From: Armatimonadota bacterium
Lineage (GTDB): Bacteria; Armatimonadota; Fimbriimonadia; Fimbriimonadales; Fimbriimonadaceae
Assembly: GCA_018268355.1 (NCBI GenBank)
Contig: JAFDWR010000002.1
Coordinates: 248,001 to 312,000, forward strand
Direction of reading: 5' to 3'
Length of the DNA: 64,000 nucleotides
Position 1 is the first letter of the stretch; the number at the start of each line of letters is the position of its first letter. Shown one piece after another: positions 14,803-17,740 of the stretch. The translations under genes were made by a program, and so were the position numbers. The notes beneath the pieces were generated by a model. The model saw only the letters and a list, made by a program, of their open reading frames with translations. It ran no database searches and was not told the origin of the DNA.

Positions 14803-16605
14803 ATGGCCACTGCCTACGAACAGACCTATCTTTACCGTTTGCGGCACTCCGCCGCCCATCTCATGGCTCAGGCCGTGACCGAGCTCTACCCCGGTGCCAA
14901 GCTCAGCATCGGCCCCCCCGTTGAGAACGGCTTTTACTACGACATCGAATTCGAGACGCCGCTTCGCGAAGAGGATCTGGCGAGCATCGAGAAGCGGATG
15001 AAGGAGCTTTCTAAGCTCGACCAGCGCATCGAACGCACCGAAGTCTCGCGAGACGACGCGAAGGCGTTGATTCTCGACGAGTCGATCCCGGGCATGGGCC
15101 CCGCGGTGGCGGAGTACAAGCTCCAGCTGCTCGATGCGATCCCCGAGGGCGAGGCGATCAGTTTTTATGACCAGAAGCGCACGGACCGCGAAGGCGTCCA
15201 CCACCGATTCCTCGACCTTTGCCGTGGACCGCACGTCGACACGACCAAGGAGATCAAGCACTTCAAGCTGATGTCGATTGCGGGTGCCTATTGGCGCGGC
15301 AATGTGAAGAACAAGCAGTTGACCCGCATCTATGGCACCGCTTGGGAGTCGGCCGAAGAGCTGGAGGCCTACCTCCACATGCTGGAAGAGGCGAAGAAGC
15401 GCGACCACCGCATCCTTGGCCGCGAGCTGCAGTTGTTCATGTTCTCGAGCAAGGTGGGCACCGGTCTGCCGCTCTGGCTACCGAAGGGCGCGACCCTGCG
15501 CGACGTGATGGTCGACTTCCTTAAGAAGGAGCAGGTCAAGCGAGGCTACGACCCCGTCGTGACCCCGAACATCGCGAACATCAAGCTCTACGAGAAGTCC
15601 GGCCACGTGGTGAACTACCGCGACAAGATGTTCCCGTTCATGCAGGACGACGAGGATGAGATTTACATCCTCAAGCCGATGAACTGCCCGTTCCACATCG
15701 AGATCTATGCCTCGCAGATGCGCTCTTATCGCGACCTGCCGATCCGGTATGCCGAGTTCGGAACCGTGTATCGGTATGAGCAGAGCGGCGAGGTTGCGGG
15801 CATCCTCCGCGCACGCGGTTTCACCCAGGATGACGCTCACCTCTTTGTCACGCCGGAACAGCTTCAAGATGAGTTTGTCGGCGTGGTCGACATCATGCGG
15901 ACCGTGCTCCAGAAGCTCGGCCTGAACGACTTCCGGATGCGCGTGGGCACCAAGGACCCTTCGTCGGACAAGTACGTCGGCCACGATGACAACTGGGAAG
16001 CGGCGACCAAGGCGATCACCGATGCGTGTGACAAGCTCGGCCTCGACTATGAGGTCTCGCCTGGCGATGCGGCCTTCTATGGCCCCAAGCTCGACCTGAT
16101 CATCAAGGACGCGCTTGGTCGCGAGTGGCAGATGGGCACCGTGCAGGTGGACTACAACCTGCCCGAGCGATTCGAGCTTGAGTACATCGCCGAGGACGGC
16201 AAGCCCCACCGCCCGATCATGATCCACCGCGCGCCGTTTGGCTCGCTGGAGCGCATGATTGGCCTCCTTACTGAGCAGTATGCGGGTGCGTTCCCGCTAT
16301 GGCTGTCGCCGGTGCAGGTGGCGGTGCTCCCGATTGCGGATCGTCACGCCGAGCCCGCCCACGAGCTCGCTCACAAGCTCCGCGAGCTCATCTTCGACAC
16401 GCGGAATGTTCGCGTTTCGGTCGATGATCGGCGCGAGACGCTCGGAAAGAAGATTCGCGAGGCTCAGCTCCAGAAGGTCCCGTTCATGGTGATCTTGGGT
16501 GACAAGGACCTCGAGAACGGCACGGTTGGCGTCCGGTCGCGCGAAGACGGTGACCTCGGGGCGATGCCGGTTGAGGAGTTCATCCGCCGGTTCTTGACGG
16601 GTTAG
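14803..16605 (+). CDS. thrS: threonyl-tRNA synthetase without TGS domain
   Basis: Charges tRNA-Thr; 600 residues. The ATG at 14803 follows GGGAGGG. The upstream open frame back to 14614 is antisense to hutU and lies before the promoter, so it is excluded. The protein opens directly with the editing domain (RHSAAHL HxxxH, GFYYDIEF, HRFLDLCRGPHVD), so the usual N-terminal TGS domain of about 60 residues is missing. The catalytic core has YAEFGTVYRYEQSGEVAGIL (motif 2) and IMIHRAPFGSLERMIG (motif 3). A C-terminal anticodon-binding domain follows from about residue 500. Confidence 0.95.
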   Translation: MATAYEQTYLYRLRHSAAHLMAQAVTELYPGAKLSIGPPVENGFYYDIEFETPLREEDLASIEKRMKELSKLDQRIERTEVSRDDAKALILDESIPGMGPAVAEYKLQLLDAIPEGEAISFYDQKRTDREGVHHRFLDLCRGPHVDTTKEIKHFKLMSIAGAYWRGNVKNKQLTRIYGTAWESAEELEAYLHMLEEAKKRDHRILGRELQLFMFSSKVGTGLPLWLPKGATLRDVMVDFLKKEQVKRGYDPVVTPNIANIKLYEKSGHVVNYRDKMFPFMQDDEDEIYILKPMNCPFHIEIYASQMRSYRDLPIRYAEFGTVYRYEQSGEVAGILRARGFTQDDAHLFVTPEQLQDEFVGVVDIMRTVLQKLGLNDFRMRVGTKDPSSDKYVGHDDNWEAATKAITDACDKLGLDYEVSPGDAAFYGPKLDLIIKDALGREWQMGTVQVDYNLPERFELEYIAEDGKPHRPIMIHRAPFGSLERMIGLLTEQYAGAFPLWLSPVQVAVLPIADRHAEPAHELAHKLRELIFDTRNVRVSVDDRRETLGKKIREAQLQKVPFMVILGDKDLENGTVGVRSREDGDLGAMPVEEFIRRFLTG

Positions 16606-16620
16606 TCGCGCCGACCCTGT

Positions 16621-16634
16621 CCCCGGATTCGGGG
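16621..16634 (+). terminator. short hairpin after thrS
   Basis: CCCCG GATT CGGGG lies 16 bases after the thrS stop. The stem is short and no T tract follows, so its role as terminator is uncertain. Confidence 0.3.
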
Positions 16635-16667
16635 GGTTGCCCGGGCGTGCTTTGGGGCAGCGGGTTC

Positions 16668-16740
16668 GTCGCGCCGACCGAGGGCGGAGGGCGAGCGTAG
16701 CGAGCCCGAGGGAAGTGGCTTCGGGCTCGGTCGGCGCTAC
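16668..16740. repeat. 63-bp structured repeat, copy 1
   Basis: The core 16673-16735 is identical over 63 bases to 17673-17735, exactly 1000 bases away. The ends pair (GCCGACC with GGTCGGC, extended by flanking GC/GC), and an inner stem pairs GAGCCCGA with TCGGGCTC. It also holds a GCGAGC direct repeat. The left arm GTCGCGCCGACC occurs once more at 16605-16616. It lies between the thrS and glycosylase stops. Confidence 0.9.
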
Positions 16741-16741
16741 T

Positions 16742-17641
16742 TCAGCTCTCTTCGTCCGAGAACGACCTCGGCCAGTCGTCCTTCAGCAGCCGAGAGAGGG
16801 CCCGATCCGCAAGGATCCGGCCCTCGTTTTGGCATTCGGCGCAGTAGTTCGTCTCGTTCTCCGCATAGCGGATGCGCTGGATCGGGCGTCCGCACACGGG
16901 GCACGGCTGCCCGAACTTCCCGTGGGCGGCGAAGTCGGGCCGGAAGGCGGTGACGTCGCCCGGGCCGGGGAACTTGTCGCCGCCCTTGAACTCGTCGAGG
17001 AGCTTGGCCGCCCAGAGGTTGAGGGTGTCCCTCGTCGCGAGGCGCAGCCGTTCCACCTCGTCCGCCGAGAGGCTCTTGGTCAGCTTGAGCGGCGAGAGCC
17101 GCGCGGCATGGAGGATCTCGTCGGAGTAGGCGTTGCCGATCCCCGAGAAGCGCTTGGGGTTTGTGAGGGCGCGCTTGATGGTCCGATTCTCAGCGAGGAG
17201 AGCCTCAGAGAACGCCTCGGGCGAGGCCGAGAGTGGATCGAGGCCACCGGGATCCTGTCCCGCGGCGTCGGAGCGGCTCGCGAACAGCCACACCCCTGCC
17301 CTCTTCTTCGAGCTCACCTCGGTGAGCACGAGGATCCCGTCATCTAACCGCCAGCTGGCATGGGTGATCTTCATTTGCACCTTGGCGGTGGGGGCGAGCC
17401 AGCGAAATCGCCCCGCGATCATCAGGTGGACCACGATGCAGGCTCCACCCTCGAGTTCAAACGCGATCCGCTTGCCGAGTCGAAAGACGTCGCGAATCGG
17501 CTTGCCAAGGAGATCGGCGGGCTTTGGCGCGACCGTGCGGAGCGCGAACGGATTGTAGAACTTGAACTCGCTGAAGGCCCGATCGGTCACCCGCTTGCGA
17601 AGAGCGGCGAGGTAGAGCTCGATGTCGGGGAGCTCGGGCAT
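16742..17641 (-). CDS. Fpg/Nei-family DNA glycosylase
   Basis: Base-excision repair glycosylase/AP lyase, 299 residues. The N-terminus MPELPDIE supplies the catalytic Pro2 and Glu3. The helix-two-turn-helix region reads FSGIGNAYSDEILHAARLSP. A C-terminal zinc finger has CPVCG and CAECQ. In classic Fpg and Nei the second half of the finger carries a DNA-contacting Arg shortly before the second Cys pair. Here that stretch is ENETNYCAECQ with no Arg, followed by an unusual tail of about 30 residues. The family is clear; whether it is a standard MutM is not. The gene is bracketed by the two 63-bp repeats. Confidence 0.85.
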   Translation of the reverse strand: MPELPDIELYLAALRKRVTDRAFSEFKFYNPFALRTVAPKPADLLGKPIRDVFRLGKRIAFELEGGACIVVHLMIAGRFRWLAPTAKVQMKITHASWRLDDGILVLTEVSSKKRAGVWLFASRSDAAGQDPGGLDPLSASPEAFSEALLAENRTIKRALTNPKRFSGIGNAYSDEILHAARLSPLKLTKSLSADEVERLRLATRDTLNLWAAKLLDEFKGGDKFPGPGDVTAFRPDFAAHGKFGQPCPVCGRPIQRIRYAENETNYCAECQNEGRILADRALSRLLKDDWPRSFSDEES

Positions 17642-17667
17642 GGCAGGGTTAGATTACAACGGATCGC

Positions 17668-17740
17668 GTCGAGCCGACCGAGGGCGGAGGGCGAGCGTAG
17701 CGAGCCCGAGGGAAGTGGCTTCGGGCTCGGTCGGCTCGGG
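17668..17740. repeat. 63-bp structured repeat, copy 2
   Basis: The core 17673-17735 is identical to copy 1. The bases just outside the core differ, but the first flanking pair is still complementary (A-T at 17672:17736 against C-G in copy 1). It lies in the 142-base space between the divergent glycosylase and deacetylase starts. Confidence 0.9.

Follow-up and report, generated by a model that had tools for sequence, protein, structure and literature searches.

A dispersed hairpin element with freely varying, paired stems and a conserved internal loop in a family of Armatimonadota

Two identical 63-bp cores (16673-16735 and 17673-17735) lie exactly 1000 bp apart on either side of a DNA glycosylase gene in the window, the 64,000-nucleotide stretch of an Armatimonadota genome analysed here (assembly GCA_018268355.1, contig JAFDWR010000002.1, positions 248,001 to 312,000). 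Are they members of a REP/MITE-like family, an RNA element, or the borders of a gene cassette, as an initial annotation had variously suggested? Our data show that they are one pair of copies of a dispersed hairpin element, H, that is specific to a bacterial family (Table 1). The identity and spacing of the cores were described correctly, and the match between the two copies extends to 69 bp at 99%; in shuffled sequence the central 25-mer of the core had no chance copies. The outer arms pair as claimed, and just outside the core the pair 16672-16736 is C-G in copy 1 whereas 17672-17736 is A-T in copy 2, a compensatory difference. Folding energies of the single window sequences are only modestly better than those of shuffles (z -1.7 to -2.6), and the case for structure therefore rests on the relatives. 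Both window copies happen to carry CGTC just outside the stem.

Table 1. Features at the two H copies. Positions are those of the window, except for the covariance model matches, which are given on C2.
Feature	Position	Strand	Description
Extra left arm	16605..16616	+	GTCGCGCCGACC; with 16668-16679 flanks R as a direct repeat
Repeat R	16617..16660	-	CTGCCCC(AAAGCACGC...)GGGGACAG; short stem, ~29-nt loop
H copy 1	16671..16737	+	Outer stem 16671-16681/16727-16737; GCGCCGACCGA pairs with TCGGTCGGCGC
H copy 1, conserved segment	16682-16689	+	GGGCGGAG
H copy 1, inner stem-loop	16690-16706	+	
H copy 1, conserved segment	16707-16719	+	CGAGGGAAGTGGC; then TTCGGGC, 16720-16726
H copy 1, model matches	C2:264668-264740; C2:264671-264738		First model; phylum-wide search
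Formamidopyrimidine-DNA glycosylase (Fpg/MutM)	16742..17641	-	Pfam PF01149, PF06831, PF06827
H copy 2	17670..17738	+	Outer stem 17670-17681/17727-17738; CGAGCCGACCGA pairs with TCGGTCGGCTCG; same core, without R unit
H copy 2, model matches	C2:265668-265740; C2:265671-265738		First model; phylum-wide search

Divergent relatives of the core were already visible elsewhere in this genome by direct search, and covariance models place about 50-75 copies of H in its 2.7 Mb. The first model, built from 34 copies, gave 78 matches here at E<=1 and matched relatives too, and the second, built mostly from relatives' copies, gave 50 at E<=1e-4. The pair that had been seen in the window is thus accompanied by further copies in the genome and, as described below, by further compensated pairs. 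In thirteen members of the family, most of whose genomes are probably metagenome assemblies, the second model, with E-values that are rough, finds 41, 37, 36, 12, 9, 6, 6, 5, 5, 4, 3, 2 and 1 copies. When 291 genomes of the phylum were searched under strict filters, with few candidates taken from each and weak copies therefore liable to be missed, H was found in 14, all of the same family and from six genera, and in none outside that family. Three genomes of one genus range from 41 to 1 copies (G071, 41; G069, 37; G070, 1), a spread in which loss and gain are not separated. Among the family genomes searched, the one that contains the window is the sole representative of its genus; elsewhere, the nearest matches to its proteins include Armatimonadota, Fimbriimonadaceae among them, at 51-55%. 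No Rfam family matches H, the exact loop pattern was not found in IMG/VR, and the literature that we searched gave no account of repeats like these from Fimbriimonas or Armatimonadota; H is real and, as far as we have searched, unreported in the literature and Rfam. Its distribution over the contigs of this genome is uneven: contig C4 holds 42 of the 78 matches, where 18 would be expected, and C3, where 10 would be expected, has none.

H is about 69 nt long and consists of an outer stem of about 11 bp, an asymmetric conserved internal loop, GGGGC[G/A]GAG ... CGAGGGNNNGGCNT[C/T]GGGC, and an inner stem. Read along the G-rich strand, the order is outer stem, GGGGC(G/A)GAG, an inner stem of variable length with its loop, CGAGGG NNN GGC, then N T (C/T) GGGC and the outer stem again. 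Both stems vary freely in sequence yet stay paired, while the loop hardly changes: a set of 50 elements from relatives includes 44 distinct 5'-arm 8-mers and 46 distinct inner segments. In an alignment of 105 elements from relatives, which was fitted to the model and so leans towards structure, 91% of cells are paired, double-sided changes occupy 653 cells compared to 190 in shuffled and at most 203 in slid controls, and covariation reaches 0.709, the slid controls not exceeding 0.144. Without such fitting, the MAFFT alignment A3 gave 201 double-sided changes, where shuffled controls gave 68.5 and slid ones no more than 94. Selection for structure, which had been proposed from the single compensatory difference in the window, is therefore supported by many further compensated pairs. 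The conserved internal loop contains one covarying pair of its own (GC in 74 of the 105 elements, AU in 27, GU in 3 and unpaired in 1), which suggests that the loop itself is folded. Within this genome the same arms are found with different inner stems behind them, and arms and inner stems seem to have been swapped between copies as whole pairs.

Wherever one strand of a stem forms a G-T pair, the complementary strand has an A-C mismatch. When 95 non-redundant elements were scored symmetrically, the stems held 27 G-T against 8 A-C oppositions (p=0.002), and an earlier, smaller set had given 16 against 6 (p=0.05). This excess identifies the G-rich strand, which is the + strand in the window, as the strand whose fold is maintained, an asymmetry that fits RNA and folded single-stranded DNA alike.

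Two species of one genus (G077 and G078) share three H copies at matching sites. One of these differs by wobbles and by a compensatory change, T-A to C-G, in its outer stem, another is intact but for one base lost in an arm, and the third has identical arms. The compensatory change indicates that the structure is maintained by descent, and the matching sites show that each locus has arms of its own that are stable across this distance, whereas the stems of copies elsewhere in the genome are quite different. At a fourth site the arms are kept in G078 and 41 inner nucleotides are missing. The idea that arms are pre-existing host hairpins was rejected, G078 having kept the GGCTTCRGGCC of the element's 3' loop at this site, which we read as a deletion in that genome. 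No event of mobility was seen directly among the genomes compared. Between G069 and G070 the flanks were too diverged and no clean empty site was recovered; upstream of the gene to the right of locus L212, G070 has neither H nor an arm, the orthology of the other flank being unsure.

H is almost always intergenic and occurs in both orientations. Copy 1 fills the gap between the convergent thrS and fpg genes; on the other side of fpg, copy 2 separates that gene from a divergently oriented polysaccharide deacetylase gene. The suggestion that the bracketed gene is a cassette has to be abandoned, as copies adjoin unrelated genes, most of them bracket nothing, and the gene in the window is an ordinary Fpg/MutM glycosylase that we do not consider part of the element; orthologous H copies in relatives that flank other genes also rule out a cassette around fpg. 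Using gene calls from a simple home-made codon-usage caller, which reproduces the genes of the window, 54 copies of this genome could be classified by context as sense (15), antisense (14), divergent (16) and convergent (9). The lack of an orientation bias means that terminators or mRNA leaders do not fit. A host element acting in mRNA, whether terminator, attenuator or stabilising hairpin, would agree with GC-rich hairpins between genes and with the convergent position of copy 1, but the divergent class, to which copy 2 belongs, and the near equality of sense and antisense copies already disfavour it, and we hold it to be the least probable of the explanations. One copy lies in frame within an 849-aa ORF, between the N-terminal and C-terminal domains of an M16 peptidase, and looks like an insertion. 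Five of 57 relatives' copies (L202, L204, L218, L219 and L226) have a tRNA or tmRNA gene no more than about 100 bp away, which at a glance is commoner than expected. At L200 (G079) and L206 (G084), H stands just upstream of a same-looking gene (ispG by eye) in opposite orientations.

In this genome a second repeat, R, often accompanies H. Its 16-mer GCGTGCTWTGGGGCAG has 57 sites in the genome at <=1 mismatch, compared to none for the reversed control, and elsewhere in the family exact copies of R occur only in G071 (two). In 32 of 55 copies the right flank of R (CGGGC plus the H 3' arm) is repeated <=110 nt upstream, compared to 13% when flanks are swapped between loci, and the arrays accordingly consist of H followed by one or more units of R plus a 3'-arm copy. 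At copy 1 in the window R lies upstream of H and reads on the other strand, with a copy of the 5' arm on either side, which accounts for the left arm that had been noted as recurring alone; that arm begins with the final base of the thrS stop codon. R would either insert at H arms or be duplicated with them; we infer insertion with duplication of the H arm, tandem duplication being the alternative. At L026 (G000, the genome of the window, C1:284800-289200) four H copies with R units are spaced about 1 kb apart beside two small paralogous membrane-protein-like ORFs, and the arms are alike in three of the four.

A TnpA-REP-like transposase and target-site duplications had been named as things to look for, and neither was found. 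Y1_Tnp (PF01797) has no match in this genome, which is 97.7% complete, and is absent from 10 of the 13 relatives that bear H by the first model, as well as from the other genomes in which H is most abundant (G054, G069 and G071), though it is present in 52 of 85 family genomes. Reverse transcriptase (PF00078) is absent in G000, G054, G069, G071 and G077-G079. Searches for these two enzyme families yielded no transposase candidate. Adjacent direct repeats of >=3 nt around H stand at 2.0%, compared to 2.5% in shuffles. Across 103 elements, GTAG occurs at the ends of 2 and CGTC at the ends of 9, with the same numbers (2 and 9) in background windows 40 nt away. Conserved terminal inverted repeats, as in a MITE of a DDE transposon, were not seen in the 50 relatives' elements, given the arm diversity described above. 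Of the REP/MITE-like proposal, then, the dispersed family stands, without the transposase or the duplications; the RNA element is still a candidate, one strand being the folding strand. At L193 (G077 C1:447815-448247) a Y1 gene begins about 20-35 bp downstream of H, the only such case seen; this gene was considered as a mobiliser and is treated as a coincidence.

By behaviour H is like a REP/MITE, and by its pattern of conservation it is like a structured RNA. We give about an even chance to H being a non-autonomous, REP/MITE-like selfish hairpin that is recognised by its fold and loop. Such an element would be read while single-stranded, by the fold and some ~30 conserved loop nucleotides, which would leave the stem sequence unconstrained beyond pairing, and a putative mobilising enzyme would read the folded structure. 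We prefer this to an RNA gene family because of the neutrality of orientation, the patchy copy number, the copy inside a gene and the independent assortment of arms and inner stems. Vertical inheritance at the orthologous sites of G077 and G078, the lack of target-site duplications, the failure to see movement or recover a clean empty site and the lack of a transposase candidate speak against it, and a structured RNA, too, would be expected to show a conserved internal loop and a fold specific to one strand. RNA stems are expected to hold more G-U than the roughly 2.5% seen in the internal stem pairs of H, where wobbles are few. This shortfall, the lack of orientation bias, the in-frame copy in a coding gene, the presence of at least 50 copies in a 2.7-Mb genome, the patchy distribution and the lack of an Rfam match make it possible but unlikely that H is, as the main rival reading has it, a structured RNA proper, that is, a dispersed small RNA, a protein-binding RNA or a ribozyme, in which the loop would be the active or binding part and the stems scaffolds. 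In favour of that possibility are the covarying pair in the loop, the strand-specific excess of wobbles, a possible tandem G-A/A-G step beside the inner stem, read from the sequence as GGAG-stem-CGAGG, and the combination of variable stems with a conserved loop, which is the pattern of structured RNA and the reverse of that in known repetitive hairpins (PMC2800124).

Two further explanations address how the palindromes could move or persist. IS200/IS605-type movement leaves no target-site duplication. H could be a REP/REPIN (PMC3116915) moved by a RAYT, a Y1 tyrosine transposase, since lost or acting from elsewhere: it is an intergenic, strand-specific hairpin that lacks such duplications, as in this type of movement, and one Y1 gene of G077 starts just downstream of H. 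However, the genomes richest in H have no Y1_Tnp, neither GTAG nor CGTC is enriched at its ends, and REP stems are conserved where those of H are not, which makes this explanation improbable. H could instead be inert, its palindromes kept perfect by a DNA process such as template switching between arms and not by selection; the few mismatches and wobbles in the stems and the seeming exchange of arms and inner stems as whole pairs would be in keeping with this. Such a process has no strand, yet G-T exceeds A-C, and it would leave the conserved internal loop and its covarying pair unexplained, so that we regard it as slightly less probable still than the RAYT explanation.

The selfish hairpin that we prefer has partial counterparts among known systems. 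Like REP/REPIN elements (GTAG, RAYT), H is a short intergenic hairpin with many copies that are sometimes clustered, and no target-site duplication was found here; unlike them, it has hypervariable stems, a conserved asymmetric loop, no enrichment of GTAG and no Y1 in the H-richest genomes. Integron attC sites are recognised as a folded single strand, their structure being kept while much of the sequence varies. H shares this retention of structure, but in the alignments its arms show no conserved GTT/AAC-type box, and it has no cassettes. CGTC-tagged REPs are described as being without a dedicated transposase, with families listed from five phyla and Armatimonadota unmentioned (PMC3733652); they resemble H in being palindromic, in having no transposase found and in lying in some cases inside genes, but CGTC at the ends of H equals background and the published families come from other phyla. 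The palindromic elements of Rickettsia, for which a review gives a length of ~150 bp and which often carry an ORF (PMC10969869), can sit in frame in coding genes as one H does, whereas H is shorter and almost always intergenic. The repetitive hairpin elements of sponge mitochondria, dispersed, at times doubled or arrayed and scattered among lineages like H, have conserved stems and variable loops (PMC2800124), the opposite of H.

Well-known bacterial hairpin repeats such as REPs are recognised by conserved stems and, where understood, depend on Y1; H reverses this pattern and thrives in genomes without Y1, so that either a mobilising system that reads structure or an RNA carried by the repeat awaits discovery. 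We put forward only tentatively that H represents a new class of dispersed element recognised as a folded single strand, in which the loop would carry all specificity and the stems would be free, and which would be either mobile with a structure-reading enzyme or a new structured RNA spreading as a repeat. The conserved loop and the covariance model make both readings testable, and the genus with 41, 37 and 1 copies offers sister species for this. A sub-family of H with a constant length of ~100 nt occurs in G069 (L398-L406, with L410 similar) and G071 (L407-L409). In G069 its members have near-identical arms and inner stem, and an apical loop of ~28 nt that is nearly unrelated between copies. 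These loops had no match in their own flanks, and such a variable loop would fit a copy-specific guide or a captured sequence.
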